From Candidatus Brocadia pituitae (lineage in GTDB: Bacteria; Planctomycetota; Brocadiia; Brocadiales; Brocadiaceae): 64,000 nt of DNA. The notes beneath the pieces are model-generated. The model did not search any database. It saw only the letters and a list, made by a program, of their open reading frames with translations, and was not told where the DNA came from. The stretch spans positions 2,178,613-2,242,612 of the forward strand of contig AP021856.1 in NCBI GenBank assembly GCA_017347445.1, read 5' to 3'. Below are positions 10,207 through 33,396 of this stretch, one piece after another. Numbering within the stretch: the first letter of the stretch is position 1; every line of letters starts with the position of its first letter. The position numbers were made by a program, and so were the translations under genes.

Positions 10207-13200
10207 TTAAAGTGAATTACCATAATACAAATCCAATATTTCTTGATCATTCAGTGCCCTATTGTAAACTTGGACATCGTCAACTTTGCCATCCATATGG
10301 CCATAATTCCAAGATAATGTCCCTATGGCCATATTGGATGTAGCGGTATATGGCACGACTGTATTCCCCGCCGGGTGGATCTGCGTATTCACGAGTTGTC
10401 CATCCACATATAGTTTCTGCTCCCCCGTAGTTTTATTGTAAGTGCCCGCAACGTGAAACCACTTATCGGTCGAAGTAATTAAATCCTTAATCGCATACTT
10501 TTGAGTTTTCGTACCCCCGGATGTTTTACTCGTTACAATAAATCGTATGGTATTTTTTGTACTGCTGTACTGATCAAAATATAATCCGTACCCTTCACCC
10601 CCTGCATTCCATGACCAGCCTCCATAAATAGTATCCGGGTCCACTGTATCGACTGAATTCCGGTAAAACCATGCTGAGACTGAAATCTCATCATAGTTTA
10701 AGGAAGGAGTCGATACATAATTACTGGTACCATTAAAATTCAATGCCCCCCCGAATTTCCCGGTAGTCCATGTGGCACCATTGATAGTGCCATTCCTGCT
10801 ATTTCCTGATGAATCAGCCGTAGTCGACCCAGTTCCTTCATCAAATGTATAGTAAGCCTGTTGGCCACCAATACCATTAGACGCTTCTGTTGTAAAGCTC
10901 CAGGTGTAATTGGCTGCCATGGGATTGCCAGCCACATCCGTTACCCCCGTGGTAATTGTTGCCGTGTACGTAGTGGAATATGCCAGAGGACCTGACGGCG
11001 TAAATGTGGCCGTCATCCCACTGTATGATACTGTTCCCGTCACACCGCTTATAGTAAAGGTGGTGTTGTTTATAGTAGCAGAGGTCATCGCCTCGCTGAA
11101 TGTAGCGGTAATGGCATTGCCGACAGCGATATTTACTCCTCCACTTACTGGGTTCGTTGCACTCACAATTGGCGGTATCATATCAGACCCTGTACCGTCA
11201 TTAAACAGAGACAACACATCCCCGGCACTCAGTGCCCTATTATAAACATGAACCTCATCGACTTTGCCATTCATATGGCCATAATTCCAAGATAATGTCC
11301 CTATGGCCATATTGGATGTAGCGGTATATGGCACGATCGTATTCCCCGCCGGGTGGGTCTGTGTATTCACGAGTTGACCATCCACATATAACTTCTGTTC
11401 ACCCGTGGTTTTATTGTAAGTGCCCACAACATGAAACCACTTGCCAGTCGATGTTATCAAATCCTTGATCGCATACTTTTGAGTTTTCGTACCCGCAGAT
11501 GTTTTACTGGTTACAATAAATCGTATGGTATTTTTCGTACTACCGTACTGATCAAAATACAATCCATACCCCTGTACATTAGACCATGACCAGCCTCCAA
11601 AAATGGTATCAGGGTCCACCGTATCGACTGAATTCCGGTAAAACCATGCTGAGACTGAAATCTCATCATAATTTAAGGAAGGGACCGATACATAATTACT
11701 GGCACCATTAAAATTCAATGCCCCTGCAAATTTCCCTGTAGTCCAGGTAGCTCCGCTAACAGTTCCATGCCTTCCATTTCCTGAAGAATCCGTTGCCGTA
11801 GTTCCGTTTCCCTCATCGAACGCATACAGCGCCTGAACACTGCTTGAATTATTTGTGGTGGTGCTGCTCAAGGTCATAAAAGACATTTCATTTCCGCAAG
11901 TTATCCCTGCACTGTTCTTTCCCACTATCCGGTAATAATACGTCTCGCCTTCTAATAATCCGTTTATGACGATACTTACAGTCGTATCACTCGACCCATT
12001 GATACTCTGTGTCGATGATTTGTTTTCATATGATCCGCTGCTCATGCCGTACTCAAACCATATCGTTGTTATTAATCCATTAGCTTTCACCGTTCCATTT
12101 AATGTGACAGAATTCAATGTAATATTGGTTGCTAGCCCAGTCGTCACCGTAGATACAGTACCAGCAATGTAGTTTACGGTAATTGTAGCGCTGCCCGAAT
12201 TACTCGCCCCATCTGTTGCTGTTACTGTAATTGTGTTCTCACCGGTTGTTAGACTTATACCAGAAATACTCCAGCTAGTGGTACCCGTGGCCATACCATT
12301 TCCACCTTTATCATTACTCCAGCTTACACCCGTTACACCACTGGTACTATCTGAAGCATTTCCCTCAAGGTTTAATGTGTTGCTTGTCGTCGTGTAAATA
12401 ACATTTGATTTAGGATTATTGATCGTTACCTTGGGAACGGTTGTATCCAATGTGATGGAATCGCTGACGGTATTTGATACATTTCCTGATGCATCCTTGT
12501 ACCACACATAGACCGTCTTTTTCCCATCCTCACTGCTTAACGTGTAGGAAACGCTCTCGGTATAATTGGGAGTAGAAGTAATAGGCGTCCAATTCGTAGC
12601 AGATGCCAAGGGTTTGGTTGAACTCATTGAGAGATAATACCCTGTTACTCCCACGTTGTCCGTAGCCGAAAGTGTTAATGTAACCGTCGTTGAATTGGTA
12701 TAGGTAGCGTTACTGTTGATACTGACTGAACACTGCGGTGCTATAATGTCCACGCTTGAGGTAGATGATGGTGGCGGCAATTTCCATGTGCCTGTTGGGC
12801 CATTTAAGTAAACGAAACTATCAAAGGGATTAACTGTAAGATTGTGAATATTTAAATATGCACCGAGATTTCCGTTAATATTTACCCAGGTATTGCCTTT
12901 GTCTAGTGACCGAAATACTCCATTTGACTTGCCGGCCCAACCAGCAAAAGCACCTGCATAAACAATATTGGAATTATTAGGATCTACTGTTACCGCGAGA
13001 ATATTAATCCCTCCGAATTGGTCTTTTGCAATGCCGTTTTCAGCATTTTTTAATATTGCAGTACCACCTTTTGCGACAGTGTTGTTTATTATATAAACAC
13101 CCTTGCCCTTGACAGCAACGTAAATCCTGTCTTGATCAGTAGGGTCTATTGCAATTTGAGAGATAGAAAATCCATTTGTGAGATTTAGTGGCGGGTAAGG

Positions 13201-16200
13201 ATTTGTCCATGTATTTCCCTGATCAATAGATTTATAAATCGTGCTGCCACTATGAGAGTAAACTATGTTTCCATCCCCTTTGAAAATTTCAAGTATCGGT
13301 CGTGTAAGAGTGGTAAACGTGTTGCTAGTTTGAATATTAGTAAATTTAAATTTTTGCGCATATACAATATTAGAATTTTGTGGATGAGCAAATATAGCTT
13401 TATAATCAGCGTCTTCTGTCCCACTAACAATGGCCCAACTCGTTCCAGATGATCTTGATATTACAACAACAGAACTGTCCCATTGACCAACCGATTGCAC
13501 AACAATATCATCAAGCATAGCAACGGCATGAGACGCTTTTTTGCCTTTCCAAGTAACATCCATGATAGCTGTAAACGTATCTTCATTGTTTGTAGTAATA
13601 AGCGAACCAAAATCGGTATGAGAAAAAACAGCCCGCTTAGAATTGTTTCGATCCCAGGCAATAGGAGTAGCACTCATCTGCGTTCCCGCCGACGCTCCAG
13701 AATAACCGGTGTTTGAGTATTTCCAGGTGACACCTCCATCTGTTGTCCGTTTAATCTGATTGCCCCATCCAGCCACCAGAGCGATATCTTGATTTGCCGG
13801 GTGAAAAGCTATAGACGGAGTTCCGTTGTCAATACCAGACAAATTATTAGTCCAGCCGAATAACGATCCTGAGATCCATCCATAAGCATTTTGTTCGTCC
13901 ATATTAGCTGTTTGAGTCCAACTCGCTCCACCATCATTGGTATAATACAAATGCTTTCCAAATATTTCTTTAAAGGTAACTATTAACCTATTTGAATTAA
14001 CCGGAGACATAACAAGAAAACATGCTGTGCCGCCAAGACTTATGGGGTTTGATAAACCATTATTTCTTGCACTGAAATTGAGCCCTCCGTCAGTAGAACG
14101 ATACACCCCTTTAGATCCTGCTGCAATATACATAGTATTTGGTGTGCGTGGATCAATTTGCAACTGATACACGGCGCCCACTGGCAATCCAGTTCCTATC
14201 TTAGTTACCGTAGCAGAACTACCGCTATCAACTATCTTATAAAGTCCATCAGTCGCAGACACAAACAAAATAGTATTGTCAGTTGGATGAACAACAATGT
14301 TGTTTAAATTCAGGGTGTCAAGTATATATCCACCACCAGACTTATTTAGTAGATTCCAGGTAGTGCCGTTTGTTGATTTCAAAATACCGCCTGTAGCTGG
14401 TGCTGCATAAATAGTAGAGCCAGCAAAAGCAAGCTTTTTCCCATTAGAATGACTTCTGTGAAAATGAGCTTTTTTGACCAATGTCCATGTGTTCCCGCCA
14501 TCAGTTGATCTTATTATACCTTCTATATGGTCTGCTACACAAGACCACCAACCCATTACACTGCCAGCGACATAAACGATATTTTCGTTATTTGGATCAA
14601 CCACTATTGAAGCTCCACCTTGTGCTGGATAGTCACCACCTTTTCTCTGCCAGCTTATACCGCCATCTGTGCTCTTCCATACCTGAGTAGTGTCGGTAAC
14701 GAAATATACCACATTAGGATTCGACGACGCATAGCTTATATCAAAAATCATTTGCCACCCTTCACCACCAGATAATCCTGCTGCTTTTTGAGCACTCGTT
14801 CTTATAGGTACCTGTTGCCAGATATGCGAAGAGACAGCTTGCTGAGCGAGCGTAGCTTTTGTGCCGATATCTTTTTTATTCCGCTTTTTGGAAGAAACAG
14901 ACTCAACCCACGCCATATCCGACAATCCATTGTTATTTTCTCCTCCACGAGAAGCCTCGCTACCGGACGTTCTGTCTGGCTCTGAATTGGTGGCCACGGT
15001 TGACTGACTACCCCCAGATCGATCAACATCCGTTGATACCGTTACAATGTACCCCTTCCCCAAATCATCTTTGCTCTTTAATCGTATCTCGTTGCCAACA
15101 ATACTAACGTCATTCTTCCCATCCCCCGACTCAATAAAATGGCTATTCGCACGCTGTACCGTGGTTACCGTTTCACCGGCATTGAGTGTTATTGCCCCCG
15201 ACAGTGTTAAAAATACCGCAAATAATTTTTCTGTCACCGGATGCCGTGAATACATAACATCTCCACTCGCATAACTCTTTGTGCTTCTATACACACTTCC
15301 GTCCCATGCCCGATCAGGAAGCGTCACCTTATTAAGATTATCCCAGTTGGGTAAACACCGGATGAGTTTCAGCCGGGGATGTATCTCAGAGATGTCATGA
15401 AACTCAGGCATGCCATCCCCACACCAATTATACCATGCCCCGTGAATGCCCGCCTTGGCTGCAAAGAGACGATTCTTATATTCATCCGCTTCGCCAGACT
15501 GGGAGATGCCAACCGCATCTTTCGTAATATCCACCCCCGAATTAAAATTCTTCTCTTCATCCACAAAATCCGCGTGCCCTCCATGTTTCTGACTAAGCAT
15601 GTCTGGCGTTAGCGCATCCTTATCTGCACGATCCTTTATCTGATAGATCCATTCATCCGTATCCACTTCACTATACAGTACTGATGGCTGGACAATCCAT
15701 CTCGGATTCTCAAACTCCTCGGCAAGTCTTGCCCTCAATTGCCTATAAAAGGCAACCTTTCCATCCGAATACGTCGCATACTCATGGGTAATAGTATCAT
15801 GCACCAAACCAGAATCTGTTCCAGTCCAATAAGACAAACCGACCGGTATGTTCTTTCCCTTTTCATCTAACCGATAGAACTCACCCTCAAGCCTCGGCTC
15901 ATCCATTATATATCCACCAAAGGTAAATGGCAAACCCTCATCCTCATAACTCTTTGCCAGACGAATAATCTGCTCCACAACCTCATCAATAACCGCCTGC
16001 TGCTGAAAATCCCATATCACGGAAATTTTCTCAGCATCACCGGCATGCTGATACCCTGTCGCCAAATTATGGGGAAATGGATCGTTACTCCTCCATACCA
16101 TCCGCTGATTATAATATTCCTTTGCTGCCTCTGAAACAGGTTTAGTAATATCGATATCCCTCTCATACCCTGCTAAGACTTGTGGATAAAAATGGGGATT

Positions 16201-16452
16201 GACAAGATAAAATTTAAGGCCAGCACATTCGGTGTTTCTATGGTACTCTTTGGGAGAAACCGATGGATTTATAGCAATATACTCATATCCCATCTGTCGT
16301 GCATATTTGATATCCCCGTCTGGTTTTGTATTCCCTGCCATGCCATAATAATTCCGGTAACCTTGCTCCGACGCTGTAACCTGCTGACTTATAAAAAACG
16401 ACTGCGTGAAAAGAAAAAATAAACACCAGAAAAGATTCATAGTGGACTTCAT
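10207..16452 (-). CDS. Giant exported multidomain protein: glycosidase-like barrel, BNR/sortilin-type propeller, Ig, FN3, LamG and Big_5 domains
   Basis: A 2,081-residue secreted or surface protein. The start is taken at ATG 16452, eight bases after AGGAG, giving MKSTMNLFWCLFFLFTQSFF, a clear signal peptide. Approximate layout: TIM-barrel-like hydrolase region (25-480, with GGYIMDEPRLEGE); Ser/Asp/Gly-rich linker (490-545); a beta-propeller with many STDGG.W BNR motifs as in xyloglucanases and sortilins (548-1228); two Ig-like domains (1233-1430); FN3-like domain (1431-1525); LamG lectin-like domain (1533-1748); Big_5 domain (1755-1858); second LamG (1864-2080). The two LamG copies are close to identical in DNA. 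The domains suggest glycan binding and possibly cleavage outside the cell. Two c-di-GMP riboswitch aptamers occupy its leader, so expression should follow c-di-GMP. The substrate is unknown. Confidence 0.85.
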   Translation of the reverse strand: MKSTMNLFWCLFFLFTQSFFISQQVTASEQGYRNYYGMAGNTKPDGDIKYARQMGYEYIAINPSVSPKEYHRNTECAGLKFYLVNPHFYPQVLAGYERDIDITKPVSEAAKEYYNQRMVWRSNDPFPHNLATGYQHAGDAEKISVIWDFQQQAVIDEVVEQIIRLAKSYEDEGLPFTFGGYIMDEPRLEGEFYRLDEKGKNIPVGLSYWTGTDSGLVHDTITHEYATYSDGKVAFYRQLRARLAEEFENPRWIVQPSVLYSEVDTDEWIYQIKDRADKDALTPDMLSQKHGGHADFVDEEKNFNSGVDITKDAVGISQSGEADEYKNRLFAAKAGIHGAWYNWCGDGMPEFHDISEIHPRLKLIRCLPNWDNLNKVTLPDRAWDGSVYRSTKSYASGDVMYSRHPVTEKLFAVFLTLSGAITLNAGETVTTVQRANSHFIESGDGKNDVSIVGNEIRLKSKDDLGKGYIVTVSTDVDRSGGSQSTVATNSEPDRTSGSEASRGGENNNGLSDMAWVESVSSKKRNKKDIGTKATLAQQAVSSHIWQQVPIRTSAQKAAGLSGGEGWQMIFDISYASSNPNVVYFVTDTTQVWKSTDGGISWQRKGGDYPAQGGASIVVDPNNENIVYVAGSVMGWWSCVADHIEGIIRSTDGGNTWTLVKKAHFHRSHSNGKKLAFAGSTIYAAPATGGILKSTNGTTWNLLNKSGGGYILDTLNLNNIVVHPTDNTILFVSATDGLYKIVDSGSSATVTKIGTGLPVGAVYQLQIDPRTPNTMYIAAGSKGVYRSTDGGLNFSARNNGLSNPISLGGTACFLVMSPVNSNRLIVTFKEIFGKHLYYTNDGGASWTQTANMDEQNAYGWISGSLFGWTNNLSGIDNGTPSIAFHPANQDIALVAGWGNQIKRTTDGGVTWKYSNTGYSGASAGTQMSATPIAWDRNNSKRAVFSHTDFGSLITTNNEDTFTAIMDVTWKGKKASHAVAMLDDIVVQSVGQWDSSVVVISRSSGTSWAIVSGTEDADYKAIFAHPQNSNIVYAQKFKFTNIQTSNTFTTLTRPILEIFKGDGNIVYSHSGSTIYKSIDQGNTWTNPYPPLNLTNGFSISQIAIDPTDQDRIYVAVKGKGVYIINNTVAKGGTAILKNAENGIAKDQFGGINILAVTVDPNNSNIVYAGAFAGWAGKSNGVFRSLDKGNTWVNINGNLGAYLNIHNLTVNPFDSFVYLNGPTGTWKLPPPSSTSSVDIIAPQCSVSINSNATYTNSTTVTLTLSATDNVGVTGYYLSMSSTKPLASATNWTPITSTPNYTESVSYTLSSEDGKKTVYVWYKDASGNVSNTVSDSITLDTTVPKVTINNPKSNVIYTTTSNTLNLEGNASDSTSGVTGVSWSNDKGGNGMATGTTSWSISGISLTTGENTITVTATDGASNSGSATITVNYIAGTVSTVTTGLATNITLNSVTLNGTVKANGLITTIWFEYGMSSGSYENKSSTQSINGSSDTTVSIVINGLLEGETYYYRIVGKNSAGITCGNEMSFMTLSSTTTNNSSSVQALYAFDEGNGTTATDSSGNGRHGTVSGATWTTGKFAGALNFNGASNYVSVPSLNYDEISVSAWFYRNSVDTVDPDTIFGGWSWSNVQGYGLYFDQYGSTKNTIRFIVTSKTSAGTKTQKYAIKDLITSTGKWFHVVGTYNKTTGEQKLYVDGQLVNTQTHPAGNTIVPYTATSNMAIGTLSWNYGHMNGKVDEVHVYNRALSAGDVLSLFNDGTGSDMIPPIVSATNPVSGGVNIAVGNAITATFSEAMTSATINNTTFTISGVTGTVSYSGMTATFTPSGPLAYSTTYTATITTGVTDVAGNPMAANYTWSFTTEASNGIGGQQAYYTFDEGTGSTTADSSGNSRNGTINGATWTTGKFGGALNFNGTSNYVSTPSLNYDEISVSAWFYRNSVDTVDPDTIYGGWSWNAGGEGYGLYFDQYSSTKNTIRFIVTSKTSGGTKTQKYAIKDLITSTDKWFHVAGTYNKTTGEQKLYVDGQLVNTQIHPAGNTVVPYTATSNMAIGTLSWNYGHMDGKVDDVQVYNRALNDQEILDLYYGNSL

Positions 16453-16485
16453 AGGCATTTCTCCTAACAAAAGATTATCCAAACA

Positions 16486-16575
16486 AATATGGCAACCTGG
16501 CAATCTTCTCGCTTTTGCTGAAGACCCATGGCTTTGCGTCCCAACCTCACGGTTGGTTTGCCCTTTTCAAATTCG
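16486..16575 (-). promoter_or_regulatory. c-di-GMP-I (GEMM) riboswitch aptamer, gene-proximal copy
   Basis: Read on the minus strand the RNA has the GEMM-I core in order: GGGCAAACC, a hairpin CCAACC-GUGA-GGUUGG with a GNRA tetraloop, the invariant GGACGCAAAGCC, a second stem (GGUCUUC paired to GAAGAUU), and the closing GCCAGGUUGCC. It ends about 25 bases before the AGGAG ribosome binding site of the giant gene. No terminator hairpin is visible in between, so control is more likely at translation. GGG precedes CAAA, which favours c-di-GMP over cGAMP, but a structural alignment is needed to be sure. Confidence 0.92.
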
Positions 16576-16604
16576 CTTCTTGATTCTTTTGTCCTTTCAG
16601 TACC

Positions 16605-16692
16605 TATGGCAACCCGGCTGTCTTCCATGGAGACCCGTGGCTTTGCGTCCTAATCTCACGATTAGTTTGCCCTTTACAAAGTTACTATTTAT
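16605..16692 (-). promoter_or_regulatory. c-di-GMP-I (GEMM) riboswitch aptamer, distal copy
   Basis: A second aptamer lies directly upstream of the first in the same transcript. The core is GGGCAAAC, hairpin CUAAUC-GUGA-GAUUAG, GGACGCAAAGCC, a second stem around GGGUCUCC-AUGG, and GCCGGGUUGCC. All invariant blocks are present, and the paired bases differ from the proximal copy in a compensated way (CCAACC/GGUUGG against CUAAUC/GAUUAG). Both are therefore under selection as folded RNAs. The promoter should lie between here and the insertion sequence at 16862; I see no confident match. Confidence 0.92.
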
Positions 16693-16861
16693 CTTAACTC
16701 GATCTTGCCTATTAGTACTATGAACAGGACGTTATCTCCTCCTTTTTCAAGAATACCACATTGAAATACATATCTTTTTTACAACTGCTTATTTTGGACT
16801 ATTTGTAATAATTAATTACGGCATGGATTTAAAAAAGTTTAAATAAATGTAACAATTTAGT

Positions 16862-16897
16862 GGGTCTTCAGGCAAGTGAGTGGGTAAAATTGAGCAG
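16862..16897 (+). repeat. Left terminal inverted repeat of the ISL3 element
   Basis: Begins GGGTCTTCAGGCAAGTGAGT and runs 36 bases. It is the reverse complement of 18176-18211 apart from one T/C difference. Confidence 0.9.
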
Positions 16898-16899
16898 TT

Positions 16900-18098
16900 T
16901 TATATCTCCTTCAGCATGCAAGTAAGAATTTTTAGCCGAAGATATTCCTCATCTCTCAAGCCGTATGCCCTCCTCTGGATCACCCGAATCTTGTTATTGA
17001 GACCTTCGACAAAGCCTAATGAGACTTTATTTACAGGTCTGCTGTAAGCTGCAATACCATCCCAGTGCTTTTCTATCATTTCTGCAAACTTCTCGTAAGG
17101 CTTTAACCGTTGCCACTTCAACGATTCCTTCCAGTTATCGAAAAACTTCCTTGCCCATCCCTCTGTCCGATAGCTCCATAATTGTCCAAACGACTCCCTT
17201 AATACATAAGCAGTATTGAGTCGTTTATTTGCCGTAAGCAATTTCTTTAACGCCTTGCGCCCATAATCTCTCTGTTTGATAAAAGCGTATACTTCTGCCC
17301 TTTGATATAAGAACGGTCTTTACCAGAAAGCCGTGCATATTCCATCTTCCGCACCGTATCCAACGCATCACCCAAATGTCTCATTACATGAAACTTGTCA
17401 TAGACAATAGCAGCTTGGGACACATTCTCTCTCGTTGACTTCTCAAATGCCTTCCACATATCCATCACTGCCAACCGTATCTTTTTTACTTTTTTTGCGC
17501 CAAGCCATTGGTAAAATATATCAAGGCTCTCTTTCGACCTATCCTTTCCTCCAAACCAAATCGGCCTTCTACGCTCCAAATCGCTTACTACTATCCGATA
17601 ACTATGCCCTTTCCGCAAGGATACTTCGTCTATCCCAATTACACGAGGCGCTGCTACTGGATATCTCCGAAGCTGCTCCTGCATGTAATGTCTTCACCGT
17701 ATCCCAGTCCAGCTGGAACTCCTTCGCTACATCCTTGACCGTCATAGTTCGACACTTCCGTCCCACAGAATAGGCAAATCGTTTCGTGTAAAAGGGATTG
17801 TTCCCTAGCCATTCCAGTTTTTCCCGCTTCACGTTCCCACACTGCCGACAGAATATTCGCCGAACCTCCACTTCCAGGTAAATCCGTGCATCCCCACAGG
17901 ATAAATCCCGTACCCGACGCACCTTCTTGTCGTAATGACTCCAATGTATCTTTCCACAACACCCGCATACCGTTTTTTTTGTGTCCGCTTAAGTTGAATA
18001 ACACGCGCCTTCGAGTCTCCAAATATCCCCCTTATTTCTGCTTTCGGACCAAATCCGGGGAACTGATATTCGTCCAGCAGTCTCCTCTTTTTTCCCAT
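16900..18098 (-). pseudogene. ISL3-family transposase, frameshifted
   Basis: All parts of an ISL3 DDE transposase are present but in different frames. The N-terminal part MGKKRRLLDEYQFPGF starts at ATG 18098. The zinc-finger region CGCCGKIHWSHYDKK and CRQCGNVKREKLEWL follow, then the DDE core VIGIDEVSLRKGHSYR with VMDMWKAFEKS and YDKFHVMRHL, and a C-terminal part ending at 16900. At least three single-base frame changes separate them: at an A8 run near 17970, near 17690 (KTLH/YMQEQ) and near 17260 (NRE/GRKALKK). Several shifts make decay more likely than programmed frameshifting, although the A8 site alone could allow slippage. Confidence 0.87.
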
Positions 18099-24770: not shown

Positions 24771-27700
24771 TTACTCTACGATCTTTACTTTTACTGCCGT
24801 CTTTACGTTGCCTGACTTAAATTTCACCGTTGCCCTCCCGGTATTATTCAAGGCTTTTATGGTAAACACTGCCTGGCCAGCATGATTAGTAATTGAGAAT
24901 TGTGGCGAAACAACAATACGTCGCTTTCCCTCTGTTATCTTTGCACGTATTGTCTCTCCTTTTACGGGACAATCGTTTGCACCTGTTATGGTAGCAGTCA
25001 CAATATCAATCTCTCCTCTTTCAATCTCCATCTTTTCCGGAAGCATCTCTATCTTATCTGTGCTGCATTCAGATGGAGGGGGAGTTGACGATGGTGTTGT
25101 AGTCGGTGGTACTATTGGTGTCGGTGTCGGTGTTTCTGTATGGCCAGGAGTCGGGGTACTAGGCACCAACTCAGTAGTAAAACTCCAAGTATAGGCAGAC
25201 GCTATTGGATTGCCAGCTATATCACGCGCCCCCGTAGTAATCGTTGCTGTATATATGGTATTGAAATCCAGATTTGTATTTGGGGTAAATGTAATAATTT
25301 TATCACGATAGGATACTACTCCACCAAGATTATTACTGCCATTATTTATACTATAGGTATCTGTACCAAGCGTAGAAGCATCCAGCATCTCGCTAAATGT
25401 TGCGGTAATAGCGCTGCTGACATTCACGCCTGCTGCACCGTTAGCAGGACTTGTATAAATGACCGTAGGGGCTGTAAAATCCCCAGTTGTCGTAAAGCTC
25501 CAGGTGTAATGAGAGATCATGGGATTGCCGGCTAAATCCTTAATCCCTTTGGTGATTTTTGCCGTATGTGTGATATAGGCGGAAAGGTTGTTTGAAGGAA
25601 TAAATGTGGCGGTTGTTTGGTTGTATGACACTATTCCGCTAATATTATCACTGCCATCATTTACGAGAAAAGTATCCGTAGTAACATCAGTAGCATCAAT
25701 CATCTCGCTGAATGTGGCGGTAACAACACTACTCACCTCCACCCCCGCAATGCCATTAACCGGATTGGTTAAAATGACTTTTGGCGCCATACTATCAACA
25801 TCCCCGGATGTCTCAAAACTCCATGTATAGGGTGACGCCAGTGCATTGCCAGCCAAATCTCTCGCCCCTGTGGCAATCCTTGCTTTATATGCAGTGTAAG
25901 GTAATAAATTATTTAATGGAGTAAATGTGGCTGTTGCACCATGACAAGAAACCGTCCCCCTGATGTTATCTTTCTCGTCGTTTACGCTAAAGGTATCTGT
26001 GGTAATGGTGGATTGCTGCATTACCTCACTGAACGTAACCGTAATGCCACGATTAATAGCCACGCCCGCATCACCATTGACAGGACTCGTAGCAATGATT
26101 GTCGGTGCAATAACGTCCCCTGTTGTTACAAAATCCCAGGTATAGTCTGAGGCAATTTCATTAAAGGCTAAGTCCATCATTCCTGTAGTAATTCTTGCTG
26201 TATACATGGTAGAATGGGACAGATTGCTGGATGGTAAAAAAACAGCTGTCGCGCCATTATACAGAACAGTCCCGCTAATATCCTTGCCACCGGCACTCAC
26301 GACAAAGGTATTTGTATTAATACTGGAAGCCAGCATTGCCTCGCTAAATAAGACGGCAATTGCACTGTTAATTGCTACCTCTGCAGCACCATTGAGGGGA
26401 TTCGCTGAAATTACCCTTGGTGAAGTAGTATCAATTGTTGTAAAGCTCCAAGTATGGTCTGAGATCAGCATATTACCCGCCACATCTCCCGCAGATGTAG
26501 TAATCCGAGCTGTATAGGTAGTTGAATCGGACAGCTTGCTCAAGGGAGTAAATGTTGCTGTTGTACCGCTGTAGGAAACCGTACCGCCGATATTACCCTT
26601 GCCATTACTTACCGTAAACGTGTTCGTATTAATCGTCGATGACTGCATTGCCTCACTGAATATGGCGGTAATGATGCTGGTAATGGCAACGCCGGTTGCT
26701 CCATTGAAAGGATTCATGGAAACAACCATAGGTGCAGTAAAGTCTCCCGTTGTAAAGCTCCAGGTATAATCTGAGATTAATGCGTTACCCGCCAAATCCT
26801 TCACTCCATTGGTAATACGTGCCGTATACGTAGTTGAATCGGACAGCTTGCTTAGAGGGGTAAATGTAGCTGTTGCGCCACGGTAAGAAACCGTACCGCC
26901 GATATTACCCTTGCCATCGCTTACTGTAAATGTGTTTGTATTAATCGTTGATGACTGCATCGCCTCGCTGAATGTAGCAATGATGACGCTGTTTATGGTT
27001 ACACCGTCAGTGCCATTCAGAGGACTCGTTGAACTGACTATCGGCGTCGTTATATCAACCGTTGTAAAACTCCAGCTATAATCAGAGGCCATTGCGTTGC
27101 CCGCTAAATCCTTCACGCCGTTGGTAATACGTGCCGTATACGTAGTTGAATCGGACAGATTGCTTAGAGGAGTAAATGTGGCTGTTGTGCCGCTGTAAGA
27201 AACCGTACCGCCGATATTACCCTTGCCATCGCTTACCGTAAATGTGTTTGTATTAATCGTTGATGACTGCATCGCCTCGCTAAATGTAGCAGTAATGACG
27301 CTGTTTGTGGTTACACTGGCAGCGCCATTCGGAGGACTCGTTGAACTGACTTTCGGTGTCGTTATATCAACCGTTGTAAAACTCCAGCTATAATCAGAGG
27401 CCATTGCGTTGCCCGCAAAATCCTTCACGCCGTTGGTAATACGTGCCGTATACGTAGTTGAATCGGACAGATTGCTTAGAGGAGTAAATGTAGCTGTTGT
27501 GCCGCTGTAAGAAACCGTACCGCCGATATTACCCTTGCCATCGCTTACCGTAAACGTGTTTGTATTAATCGTTGATGACTGCATCGCCTCGCTGAATGTA
27601 GCAATGATGACGCTGTTTATGGTTACACCGTCAGTGCCATTCAGAGGACTCGTTGAACCGACTTTCGGTGGGTTTGAATCCCCGGTCGTCATAAAGCTCC

Positions 27701-29246
27701 AGGTGTAGTCATTATCCAGCGTTGTTCCTGCATAATTTGATGCCTGAGCTCCTGTTGTGATTTTTGCCGTATAGATAGTGTTATACTTAAGATTTGCTAA
27801 TGGAGTAAAAGTGGCGGTTTCTGCATGGGTAGTTACTGCACCAGATACTTTCTCTTCTCCTTCGATTAGCTGAAACGTATCCGTGGTAAGAGTGGAACCA
27901 TTCATGAACAGTGAAAAGATCGCCGATACGGTTGTATTAACTGCCACACCTGCTGCTCCATTGGTTGGGATTGTAGAATCTACGGTAAGAATAACCCTTG
28001 GTGGGGGTGGAGGCGGCAAAGGTGGTATCAAATCTGCAATTGTATCACCAAAAAGAGCATCAGGAGTAGCGCTATACCACGTCACGTAGAGGCGCTCATT
28101 TGACATACTATTAATTCTGGCACCGTAAATATCATCAGCAGTGGCATTGACTGGCCCCTGTTCTGCATTCCACGTTGTCATTTCGTCTGTCGATTTTGCC
28201 CAGTAGATATTTCCCGTATTAGCGGTACCCGCAGTAGTTTGTGCGCTGTATACGACATATACATCACCGGTATTTTCATCAAAAGAGATTTTCGCACCGG
28301 TAATACCTTTTGTATCGTTGGTTAACACATTTGATTTGGATGTCCACGTCCCGTTAGCATAGAGAGCTGTCCGAACATCATCATTTGTGCCAAGGATGAC
28401 AATGTCTGCGGCATAGGCAAGATAAATGTTACCGGTAGTCTTGTCAATGGTTGCCCCAAATGCTCCATCATAGGTGGTATTATCAGCAGCGCTGGTATCA
28501 ATGTTCGTCCAGCCAGCATCCCAGGTACTGCCGTTAAACACCTTTGACTGGATATCATCGGCCGAAATATCCCATCGTATCGCCATAATATTCCCACCGG
28601 ATAGTGGTATCAGGATGAGGAAATCATCGGCTAGATCAAAAGGATTCGTGCCTGCCTCCGTCCAAACTGATCCGTCAGCGCTTTTCATAACAAAGGAGTC
28701 TGACCCGTCTTGGATTCCAATATAAAGAATACCGTCGGTACTTTTTGTAATAGAAGGAAGGTTGGCCCCTGCAGTATAAGACCCAGACTGGCTGGCTCCC
28801 GTTGCATTAACCGTACTCACTAACGCATCGTTGCTGGAATCAAGTCTTGTGTACCAAAGGTCATCACTGCCTGAGTCAAAGGTTACGATGTGAACAAATG
28901 TACCCGTCGAATCACCCGGAGTCCATTGGTCATACCAGATACCAACACCCAGACAGTCTGTTTGGCTATCAACCGTTACCGGCGACCCCCACACAACACC
29001 ACCATCGGTGGTCTTACGATAAACACAAGAACCGTTAAAGTCCAGGTAAAACGTGTAGCCAGTTTGATCAGAAATAAAAACCGTTGTGGGGGAAATACCG
29101 TTGTGATAGGTGGCAGTTGTTCTTACGGTACTGTCAATGGTTACTTCCGTTGCCAATACCATTCGGCTCAAAATAAGCATAAAACAAATAATGAAAAAAC
29201 TCAAGAAGACATATTGCCATTGGTGCTTCTTGATAATTTCTGTCAT
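24771..29246 (-). CDS. Giant exported protein with nine Big_5 (SbsA Ig-like) repeats
   Basis: A 1,491-residue surface or secreted protein, with AAAGGAG ten bases before the ATG. The N terminus QYVFLSFFIICFMLILSRMV is a signal peptide. Residues 35-405 form a repetitive propeller-like region (KTTDGGVVWGSP, KSTDEMTTWNAE). A proline-rich hinge precedes nine Big_5 domains (about 420-1353), each with NG...GV.....I.ATFSEAM and a closing YTWSFTT. A Thr/Pro linker (1356-1389) follows, then a C-terminal Ig-like domain (IERGEIDIVTATITG). It resembles the downstream giant at 10207-16452, which has one Big_5 domain of the same type. Role: probably adhesion or a cell-surface layer; no enzyme motif seen. 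No riboswitch is visible in its leader. Confidence 0.85.
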   Translation of the reverse strand: MTEIIKKHQWQYVFLSFFIICFMLILSRMVLATEVTIDSTVRTTATYHNGISPTTVFISDQTGYTFYLDFNGSCVYRKTTDGGVVWGSPVTVDSQTDCLGVGIWYDQWTPGDSTGTFVHIVTFDSGSDDLWYTRLDSSNDALVSTVNATGASQSGSYTAGANLPSITKSTDGILYIGIQDGSDSFVMKSADGSVWTEAGTNPFDLADDFLILIPLSGGNIMAIRWDISADDIQSKVFNGSTWDAGWTNIDTSAADNTTYDGAFGATIDKTTGNIYLAYAADIVILGTNDDVRTALYANGTWTSKSNVLTNDTKGITGAKISFDENTGDVYVVYSAQTTAGTANTGNIYWAKSTDEMTTWNAEQGPVNATADDIYGARINSMSNERLYVTWYSATPDALFGDTIADLIPPLPPPPPPRVILTVDSTIPTNGAAGVAVNTTVSAIFSLFMNGSTLTTDTFQLIEGEEKVSGAVTTHAETATFTPLANLKYNTIYTAKITTGAQASNYAGTTLDNDYTWSFMTTGDSNPPKVGSTSPLNGTDGVTINSVIIATFSEAMQSSTINTNTFTVSDGKGNIGGTVSYSGTTATFTPLSNLSDSTTYTARITNGVKDFAGNAMASDYSWSFTTVDITTPKVSSTSPPNGAASVTTNSVITATFSEAMQSSTINTNTFTVSDGKGNIGGTVSYSGTTATFTPLSNLSDSTTYTARITNGVKDLAGNAMASDYSWSFTTVDITTPIVSSTSPLNGTDGVTINSVIIATFSEAMQSSTINTNTFTVSDGKGNIGGTVSYRGATATFTPLSKLSDSTTYTARITNGVKDLAGNALISDYTWSFTTGDFTAPMVVSMNPFNGATGVAITSIITAIFSEAMQSSTINTNTFTVSNGKGNIGGTVSYSGTTATFTPLSKLSDSTTYTARITTSAGDVAGNMLISDHTWSFTTIDTTSPRVISANPLNGAAEVAINSAIAVLFSEAMLASSINTNTFVVSAGGKDISGTVLYNGATAVFLPSSNLSHSTMYTARITTGMMDLAFNEIASDYTWDFVTTGDVIAPTIIATSPVNGDAGVAINRGITVTFSEVMQQSTITTDTFSVNDEKDNIRGTVSCHGATATFTPLNNLLPYTAYKARIATGARDLAGNALASPYTWSFETSGDVDSMAPKVILTNPVNGIAGVEVSSVVTATFSEMIDATDVTTDTFLVNDGSDNISGIVSYNQTTATFIPSNNLSAYITHTAKITKGIKDLAGNPMISHYTWSFTTTGDFTAPTVIYTSPANGAAGVNVSSAITATFSEMLDASTLGTDTYSINNGSNNLGGVVSYRDKIITFTPNTNLDFNTIYTATITTGARDIAGNPIASAYTWSFTTELVPSTPTPGHTETPTPTPIVPPTTTPSSTPPPSECSTDKIEMLPEKMEIERGEIDIVTATITGANDCPVKGETIRAKITEGKRRIVVSPQFSITNHAGQAVFTIKALNNTGRATVKFKSGNVKTAVKVKIVE
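26740..27670 (-). repeat. Three near-identical ~312-bp tandem repeats inside the Big_5 giant gene
   Basis: Big_5 units 2, 3 and 4 of the protein are almost identical in DNA, with a period of about 312 bases. Shared blocks such as TCAACCGTTGTAAAACTCCA and TTGATGACTGCATCGCCTCG recur at that spacing. The neighbouring units are more diverged, so these copies were made or homogenised recently. Confidence 0.85.
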
Positions 29247-31191: not shown

Positions 31192-33396
31192 ATGAATTTA
31201 TTCCCCGCAGAAAATAACTCCCCGAAGACTAGGCTGCTTGAACGATGTTATGGGATACTTGCAGCAATGCAAGTCCTGGCTCAGTCAACCACACCGGAGG
31301 AAGCCATCTCTAAAATCCTCCAAACCATTTGTGAAAACCTGGAGTGGACGCTTGGTGAATACTGGGTCGTTGACAATAAAAGTAACACACTACGCTGTTC
31401 TGAAGTCTGGCATAAACCGTCATTCAGTATTCCGGAATACAAGAAACAGGCCATGCAAATCATCTTTTCCCCTGGTATTGGATTGCCTGGTATTGTTTGT
31501 ACTGATAAAAAACCGGTCTGGATCCACGACATCGTTGATACTCCCAAACTTCGTCACACACAAATTGCCGAAGAAGCGCAGTTTCACGGGGCTTTAGGTA
31601 TCCCCGTTCTCCATGATAACGAACCATTAGGTGTTTTTGTATTTCTGAGCAACAAAATACAACCACCCAACAAGAACATCCTCGTGACATTGTCCTCTAT
31701 CGGTAGTCTGACGGGTCTCTTTATAAAGAGAATACAAGCGGGAAATGCATTTCGTCAGGCGTACAAAGCGTTAGAACTTAAAATCAGGAAACGAACGGCA
31801 GCGCTGGTACAAGCCAACAAGAAATTACAGGTGAAGATTGCAGAGCGTAAACAGGCTGAGGATGCATTAAATGAAAGCGAGGCCAGGTACCGTGAACTCT
31901 TTGAAAATTCTCCCGTCTCTCTGTGGGAAGAAGATGCCTCTGAAGTTAAAACTTACATCGATCATTTACGGGCAACAGGAACTAATAATCTCAAGACCTA
32001 TTTTGAAAATCATCCAGAAGAAATTGACAAATGTGTTGCCCTCGTTAAGATCACAGATATAAATAAGGCAACTTTGAAGATGTATGAGGCTGCCAGCAAA
32101 AAGCAGCTATTGACCGGTTTGACTCACATCTTTGACAATGAGGCATTCACTGTATACCGGCAGGCATTGATTGCCCTGGCTGAAGGTCAAACGTTATTTG
32201 AAGCTGAAGCTACCAGCCGTACATTTTGTGGTACAAAGAACTATGTGGATCTGCGATTATCGGTAGCGCCAGGATATGAAAACACGTGGGCAAAAATTTT
32301 TGTTTCTCTTAATGATATCACCGAACGCAAGAAAACCGAGAATGCGCTGAAGCGCAGAATTGACTTTGAAAAAACGGTTGCCAGCATATCTACAAAATTC
32401 CTTGTTTTTTCTGAATTTAGTAATGCTGTTTACAAATCACTGGCTGATGCAGGCCTACTAAGTAGGGCAAGCAGGGCATATCTTTACCAGTTCCGTGATA
32501 GTGGCAGTATCATGGACAATACCCAAGAATGGTGCCATGAAGGGGTGCTTCCGAAAATTCAATATCGTCAAAACCTGTCTTCTGCCATGCACCCCTGGTT
32601 AATGGAAAACTTACACGCCGGCAACATAATTCACATTGCTGATGTTTCTCACATGCCCCTTGAGGCTGCCGCTGAAAAGGAAAAATTTGAAAAGGAGGAG
32701 ATCAAGGCACTCTTGATTCTACCGGTATATGCCGAAAATGAACTGGCAGGATTTATAGGTTTTGACAATGTCGCTACGACTGGTCCATGGAATGAGGAAG
32801 ACATTGCGCGGTTACGCATTATGGCCGAAATCATTGGAAATGCCATTGCACGTAAGAAATCAGAGGCGCTCATCACGCACATGGCCTATCACGACCCCCT
32901 TACCAACTTACCTAACCGCAATTTATTTCAAGACCGTCTCCAGGTGGCAATAGTCCATGCTAAGCGCACAGGAATAATTATGGCAGTTATGGTCATTGAT
33001 CTGGATAACTTTAAAACCATTAATGACTCTTTGGGCCATCACACAGGCGATTTGTTACTTTTGGCAGTTGCCGAACGGCTTAGTAAATGTATACGGGAAA
33101 GCGATACGATTGCCCGTACTGGAGGAGACGAATTTATCATTGTTCTCCCCGAAATTACCTATCCGATAAATGCAGCCATTGTCGCAAATAAAATACTAGA
33201 CACCTTATCAAAACCATTTTTGCTGGAAGGCCACGAACTCTATACCACTGTCAGCATAGGCATCAGCCTGTATCCAGTTGATACCATAGACACAGACGAC
33301 CTGGTCAAAAAGGCAGACATTGCTATGTATCTCTCAAAAGAACAAGGCAAAAACACCTACCGATTCTATAAGTCTGATATGAATACTCATATCTAA
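31192..33396 (+). CDS. Diguanylate cyclase with GAF-PAS-GAF sensor region
   Basis: Makes the second messenger c-di-GMP from two GTP. The 734 residues start with a GAF domain (about 25-185, IFSPGIGLPGIV), then a coiled coil (190-222, LKIRKRTAALVQANKKLQ), a PAS domain (225-385), a second GAF domain (390-560) and a C-terminal GGDEF domain (570-730). The active site is an intact GGDEF at 644-648, and RESD at 635-638 is an inhibitory I-site in the correct position five residues upstream. No EAL domain and no membrane span are seen, so it is a soluble synthase with product feedback. The likely targets in this window are the PilZ protein at 48415 and the riboswitches at 16.5-16.7 kb. Confidence 0.93.
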   Translation: MNLFPAENNSPKTRLLERCYGILAAMQVLAQSTTPEEAISKILQTICENLEWTLGEYWVVDNKSNTLRCSEVWHKPSFSIPEYKKQAMQIIFSPGIGLPGIVCTDKKPVWIHDIVDTPKLRHTQIAEEAQFHGALGIPVLHDNEPLGVFVFLSNKIQPPNKNILVTLSSIGSLTGLFIKRIQAGNAFRQAYKALELKIRKRTAALVQANKKLQVKIAERKQAEDALNESEARYRELFENSPVSLWEEDASEVKTYIDHLRATGTNNLKTYFENHPEEIDKCVALVKITDINKATLKMYEAASKKQLLTGLTHIFDNEAFTVYRQALIALAEGQTLFEAEATSRTFCGTKNYVDLRLSVAPGYENTWAKIFVSLNDITERKKTENALKRRIDFEKTVASISTKFLVFSEFSNAVYKSLADAGLLSRASRAYLYQFRDSGSIMDNTQEWCHEGVLPKIQYRQNLSSAMHPWLMENLHAGNIIHIADVSHMPLEAAAEKEKFEKEEIKALLILPVYAENELAGFIGFDNVATTGPWNEEDIARLRIMAEIIGNAIARKKSEALITHMAYHDPLTNLPNRNLFQDRLQVAIVHAKRTGIIMAVMVIDLDNFKTINDSLGHHTGDLLLLAVAERLSKCIRESDTIARTGGDEFIIVLPEITYPINAAIVANKILDTLSKPFLLEGHELYTTVSIGISLYPVDTIDTDDLVKKADIAMYLSKEQGKNTYRFYKSDMNTHI

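Follow-up and report, generated by a model that had tools for sequence, protein, structure and literature searches.

A terminator-free pair of c-di-GMP-I aptamers upstream of a giant exported protein gene in an anammox bacterium with about 48 such elements

What do two adjacent copies of the same riboswitch aptamer do in front of a single gene: do they read one ligand, do they share one output, and in which direction does that output respond? We addressed these questions for a leader of Candidatus Brocadia pituitae within a 64,000-nucleotide stretch of its genome (the window, to whose numbering positions refer unless stated otherwise). A sequence-only reading of this stretch had placed two complete GEMM-I cores in tandem on the minus strand, 5' of a gene for a 2,081-residue exported protein in a presumed anammox organism. 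The arrangement was borne out by matches to the Rfam models RF01051 and RF03167, and the genome encodes two HZS_alpha (hydrazine synthase) genes, which identifies the host as an anammox bacterium. The gene and the two aptamers lie as follows.

10207-16452, minus strand: gene for the 2,081-aa exported protein, with a signal peptide-like N terminus, BNR/propeller-like repeats, a Glucodextran_B-like domain, Big_5, and two Laminin_G_3 domains (translation and Pfam)
16604-16680, minus strand: aptamer 1 (5' copy), c-di-GMP-I/GEMM-I core with P1-P2-P3; RF03167 72.2 bits, RF01051 73.2 bits; G20, A47, and C92 kept
16487-16571, minus strand: aptamer 2 (3' copy), c-di-GMP-I/GEMM-I core; RF03167 70.9 bits, RF01051 73.2 bits; G20, A47, and C92 kept

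The giant protein has a weak PDB match to the BNR-repeat glycosyl hydrolase 3b7f, its Laminin_G_3 domains are lectin-like, and a contig search with it returned only distant propeller proteins of Bacteroidota. Two neighbors can be mentioned here. The end of an ISL3-type transposase split over two ORFs (16903-17684, minus strand), presumably a dead insertion, lies about 220 nt 5' of the tandem, and a 1,491-aa protein with at least nine Big_5 Ig-like domains (24774-29246, minus strand) is a giant surface protein whose gene has no riboswitch match.

The two matches are strong. RF03167 gave E-values of 3.8e-15 for aptamer 1 and 8.8e-15 for aptamer 2 (cmscan, 64-kb window), while RF01051 gave 73.2 bits each at 16605-16681 and 16488-16572 (E about 3e-14, whole genome). 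Both aptamers exceed both gathering scores (35 bits for RF01051 and 59 bits for RF03167), and in the RF01051 comparison, to which the sequence-only reading had left its identification, they reach twice the cut-off. The three sequence blocks that it had named, GGGCAAA and GGUUGCC among them, are found in both copies, and the compensatory changes that it saw in the first hairpin (P2) are present as well (CUAAUC/GAUUAG in copy 1 versus CCAACC/GGUUGG in copy 2). In an alignment of 13 related aptamers of this subtype from several genera, P2 is paired in 100% of cells and P1, P2, and P3 together in 93.7%, and 8 pairs in all have changed on both sides, a number reached in 0 of 500 shuffles. When the partner was slid by one column as a control, pairing fell from 94% to 42-50%. 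Covariation in the aligned sequences thus backs the predicted P1, P2, and P3 helices.

The ligand can be approached through the positions that contact it. G20, A47, and C92 have been named as ligand contacts of the c-di-GMP-I class (PMC4744006, PMC3764141); these three positions, together with the P2 and P3 pairs, are intact in both window aptamers. They also share with RF01051 members the P1/P2/P3 architecture, a GNRA-type P2 loop (GUGA), and the interhelical C44 and G83. For both copies, cmscan ranks RF03167 (the GGC variant) above RF01051, and this ranking favors a reading that we regard as very improbable, namely membership in the c-di-GMP-I-GGC variant class, maybe with a ligand other than c-di-GMP, or the sensing of cGAMP. 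The likeness to RF03167 extends to scores above its gathering cut-off (72.2 and 70.9 against 59), but the bit scores for RF01051 are slightly higher (73.2), and the base by which the variant is distinguished is absent. The name GGC presumably refers to positions 20, 47, and 92; the RF03167 consensus GACGCGAAgC has G at position 47 (A47 of the Vc2 structure), where both copies read GACGCAAAGC with A, and the GGC class was rejected on this ground. The cGAMP (GEMM-Ib) class was rejected because position 20 is G rather than A in both copies. The genome encodes 16 GGDEF domains that could supply c-di-GMP, one of them with GAF domains in the window (31192-33396). In all 13 that are legible, the residues that read guanine are canonical (ND and GD motifs), with no Hypr-type change among them, which also argues against a cGAMP system. 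By their sequence, then, both copies appear to be ordinary c-di-GMP aptamers. As both pockets have G20, A47, and C92, both should read the same ligand, which makes the two-ligand form of the two-input response offered in the sequence-only reading unlikely.

The tandem is not isolated: this genome has about 48 c-di-GMP-I sites, a context absent from the sequence-only reading. RF01051 finds 45 of these sites and RF03167 47, and their union of 48 takes in a few truncated or doubtful ones (S03, S06, and S44 have no 3' half in the fetched match). At 35 of the 48, the aptamer's own 3' strand (AGCCUUACUGC) doubles as the 5' arm of an intrinsic terminator whose end lies about 30 nt further on, compared with 1% in shuffles. 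Since a ligand-bound aptamer would keep its 3' strand for itself, these sites are predicted to be ON switches. The window pair, by contrast, falls in a minority subtype that has no terminator (S17, S25, S26, S27). No terminator-like site was found in 16350-17050, and so none follows either window aptamer, and transcription attenuation by an intrinsic terminator was rejected for this pair. The two aptamers, separated by a linker of about 31 nt, form the only close tandem of the genome (the next nearest pair is 394 nt apart), and they precede a single ribosome-binding site and a single start. With no terminator and one ribosome-binding site, both aptamers would share that output unless Rho or RNA decay is involved, and the shared output is probably translational.

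This arrangement can be compared with tandems that are already known. A review counts 347 doublets and 12 triplets of c-di-GMP-I, places them under several expression platforms, and reserves the class of dual aptamers on one platform for glycine and guanidine-II (PMC9481103). The window pair resembles the c-di-GMP-I tandems, including the triple switch of Bacillus thuringiensis (PMC9481103), in having two aptamers of the same class in one leader before a surface-protein gene; it differs in having no terminator and a single ribosome-binding site rather than several platforms. Most tandems that we examined in relatives likewise differ from it, with a terminator of their own after each aptamer (e.g., G002:C122, G003:C1, G018:C6, and G039:C132). 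Neither window aptamer is followed by its own intrinsic terminator, as an independent, pseudo-cooperative arrangement would have it, and a single ribosome-binding site leaves no room for two translational platforms; Rho-dependent termination may still act. What is found instead, two like aptamers close together with one output, is the arrangement of the glycine and guanidine-II riboswitches. That likeness lies in the arrangement and not in cooperativity, and those aptamers are of unrelated classes. The aptamer class and its doublets are known, and within the literature that could be consulted a terminator-free pair on one translational output is new.

Across the family, the orthologous leaders differ in aptamer content: some have none, some one, some the remnant of a second, and some two. 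G002 and the decaying copy G003b each have two, and their flanks of the first P1 are identical to those in the window, which indicates that the pair predates these species and led us to reject an artefactual duplication. Single-aptamer leaders are commoner among the orthologs (PAR, G003a, G030, G024, G004a/c, and G007b), and in G021a and G023 the second aptamer is cut down to its 3' half. Within the same genome, the leader recurs with a single aptamer, also without a terminator, in front of a paralog (S27, at genome position 2295158, minus strand). These patterns favor the view that only one window aptamer works, the other being redundant or decaying and kept by recent descent, so that the leader would behave like its single-aptamer paralog; it gains further from the folding model described below, where forming aptamer 2 has no effect. 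We nevertheless consider it unlikely, as neither copy has lost a ligand contact or a P2/P3 pair, the copies differ by compensatory changes, and the pair has been kept in two congeners besides the window.

Other features of the orthologous leaders deserve mention in their own right. In one leader whose second aptamer is a 3' half only (L143, G023:C63:3824-4125), the stretch from aptamer to gene contains a perfect 12-nt anti-SD (GGUAUUUCUCCU with AGGAGAAAUACC), which independently hints that the giant-gene family is controlled at translation. In four others (L150, L151, L152, and L154), a UUUGCUA copy 5' of the aptamer can pair with the P1 5' strand (UAGCAAA), likely forming an anti-P1 hairpin in these single-aptamer leaders, and possible short leader ORFs end at the same place.

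How, then, might c-di-GMP reach the start codon? The segments on which our model depends are the following.

16677-16686, minus strand: AGUAACUUUG, 5' strand of the extended P1 of aptamer 1, identical in the G002 and G003b tandem leaders
16599-16608, minus strand: CAUAGGUACU, 3' strand of the aptamer 1 P1, which can instead pair with the start-codon region; in all three tandem leaders no segment complements the start region better
16585-16592, minus strand: ACAAAAGA in the inter-aptamer linker, putative 5' strand of a helix P0 around aptamer 2, folding with 16467-16474 in every predicted state
16467-16474, minus strand: UCUUUUGU, 3' strand of P0, which can alternatively pair with the Shine-Dalgarno sequence (UCUUUU/AGGAGA) according to folding and orthologous leaders
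16461-16466, minus strand: UAGGAG, Shine-Dalgarno sequence, 8 nt 5' of the ATG
16450-16460, minus strand: AAAUGCCUAUG, start-codon region with the ATG at 16452-16450, from the sequence and a complement search

In the model, both aptamers would bind c-di-GMP and, as there is one output, both would act on the single ribosome-binding site. Without ligand, CAUAGGUACU would pair with the start-codon region, closing the start over a rod made of aptamer 2, its P1, and helix P0; with ligand, it would pair with its own P1 5' strand (AGUAACUUUG). Binding of c-di-GMP at aptamer 1 would release the start codon and so turn the protein on, while aptamer 2 would keep the rod and the anti-SD segment in place. 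We somewhat favor the general statement, that a double-aptamer c-di-GMP-I leader controls the giant surface protein at translation start and does so as an ON switch through aptamer 1. The more specific version, a dual aptamer on one translational platform in which the closing strand of aptamer 1 pairs either within its own helix or, across aptamer 2, with the start codon, giving two-site control, is put forward tentatively and is itself unlikely to be right in full. Of the parts, control at translation start by the dual aptamer has moderate confidence, and the weakest steps are the sign of the switch, for which ON has little more than an even chance, and the role of aptamer 2.

The tail of the aptamer 1 P1 is the core of this proposal. 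Its last ten bases are CAUAGGUACU in the window and CAUAAGUACU in both G002 and G003b, and its start-region partners are AAUGCCUAUG, AGUAUUUAUG, and AGUACUUAUG, respectively. In each of the three tandem leaders the tail is the top complement of the start region among about 220 segments, and one position of the duplex is A-U in the relatives and G-C in the window. In the window leader, the tail-start duplex (-10.9 kcal/mol) is only 0.7 kcal/mol ahead of the next segment. The AGUACUUAUG start sequence also occurs in relatives with one aptamer or none, so the complementarity may be partly accidental.

We then asked what folding predicts, with energies that refer to secondary structure and ignore aptamer tertiary contacts and co-transcriptional order. 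For a 245-nt leader beginning at about 16697, the start codon is predicted to become cheaper to open once aptamer 1 forms (0.4 instead of 5.5 kcal/mol), as is the whole SD-AUG region (2.6 instead of 8.8 kcal/mol). A double change of tail and start restores the closure in silico. In G002 the corresponding costs fall from 1.9 to 0.5 kcal/mol for the start codon and from 3.6 to 2.1 kcal/mol for the initiation region, whereas in the single-aptamer paralog the opening cost is only 0.6 kcal/mol. Formation of aptamer 1 itself costs 5-9 kcal/mol relative to the free fold. Forming aptamer 2 brought no predicted change in accessibility in short or long leaders, as it is already folded inside the rod of P1 and P0 (ACAAAAGA/UCUUUUGU). 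The ACAAAAGA motif recurs 5' of the aptamer in most orthologous leaders.

The outcome depends on where the transcript begins. In window leaders reaching 300-355 nt 5' of the ATG, AAUAGGCA takes the place of the tail, and forming aptamer 1 no longer opens the start (9.0-9.2 kcal/mol), so the predicted sign depends on the transcription start. A start-codon clamp by AAUAGGCA, which lies 5' of aptamer 1, was rejected as a conserved feature, being confined to the window leader. The closed long leader nonetheless fits an OFF switch, in which binding at aptamer 1 lets the upstream leader shut the start region, or the bound P1 with the P0 rod beside the SD hinders the ribosome. In the single-aptamer orthologs G030, G024, and G007b, the SD opening cost rises by 2-2.6 kcal/mol in the bound state, and window-type aptamers of other genera are followed by what look like OFF-type terminators (L164, L166, and L169). 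A general rule that single-aptamer orthologs switch like the tandem found no support in folding, the effect there being opposite or nil. Against an OFF switch, the G002 tandem leader opens at all leader lengths tried, and the terminator design at most sites of the same genome predicts ON, with which our preferred reading, ON through aptamer 1, agrees. We therefore rate OFF as a serious but rather unlikely reading of the window leader, and folding as fixing the direction of control only weakly.

A candidate promoter upstream bears on the same leader.

16815-16841, minus strand: possible degenerate sigma-28 (FliA)-type promoter, TAAACTTT-N11-GCCGTAAT, agreeing with 12 of 16 consensus positions

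The equivalent site in G002, G003b, G021a, G004, G024, and G030 agrees with 13-15 of the 16, and a TAAA..-N11-GCCGATAA motif lies 5' of the aptamer in most orthologous leaders (L141, L149, L150-L152, L154, and L160) and at S17. The genome encodes one FliA/WhiG sigma factor. A flagellar-type sigma factor combined with a c-di-GMP riboswitch would join two motility signals.

Across the 48 sites, G20 occurs with A47 in 44 and with an unread position 47 in one, while the remaining three have A20, the cGAMP-type base. These three (G000:C1 128045-128172, minus strand; 2823847-2823974, minus strand; and 3564238-3564324, plus strand), one of which precedes a sigma-54 response regulator, occur despite the lack of a Hypr-type change in the legible GGDEF domains. 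The P3 loops of many sites (e.g., G000:C1 1038389-1038523 and 2440883-2441008) hold palindromic GTTTAAAC-type repeats. Genome-wide this pattern matches 46 times, in riboswitch loops and at a few further locations, and its reversed form not once. Repeats of the ACCACCGCAAAGACGCTAAGG type occur in other P3 loops, and mobile palindromes may use P3 as a landing site.

The number of c-di-GMP-I sites per genome is 19-56 in ten congeners, 1-28 in the remaining genera of the family, and 0-5 in most genera elsewhere in the order. The earlier high count known to us is about 30 copies, in Geobacter uraniireducens. The genes downstream in this genome encode cadherin/PKD and RHS giants, an autotransporter, Kelch and SBBP propeller proteins, a GspH pseudopilin, a glycosyltransferase, polysaccharide synthesis proteins, two sigma-54 activators, an amidase, and a cache-domain protein followed by a GGDEF protein. 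We predict that the terminator-type sites are ON switches for adhesins, glycan enzymes, pseudopilins, and regulators. Their design, in which the aptamer 3' strand serves as the terminator 5' arm and the ligand would block the terminator, is that of the cGAMP ON switch of Geobacter pilM (PMC9262584), from which the window pair differs in having no such terminator, and 45 of the 48 sites differ in having the G20 of the c-di-GMP type.

Anammox bacteria live as granules and biofilms held together by surface proteins, and to our knowledge the organisms lack genetics. We found no description of an anammox c-di-GMP riboswitch regulon in the open literature, which is weak evidence of absence. At the level of the single leader, one genome with two-aptamer and one-aptamer versions on paralogous genes offers a natural comparison. 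Of broader significance is how large the anammox c-di-GMP riboswitch regulon is: the roughly 48 sensors together look like a large switchboard for cell-surface and biofilm proteins, and with so many sensors, and up to 56 in congeners, c-di-GMP control of the anammox cell surface would become testable with short RNAs and reporters.
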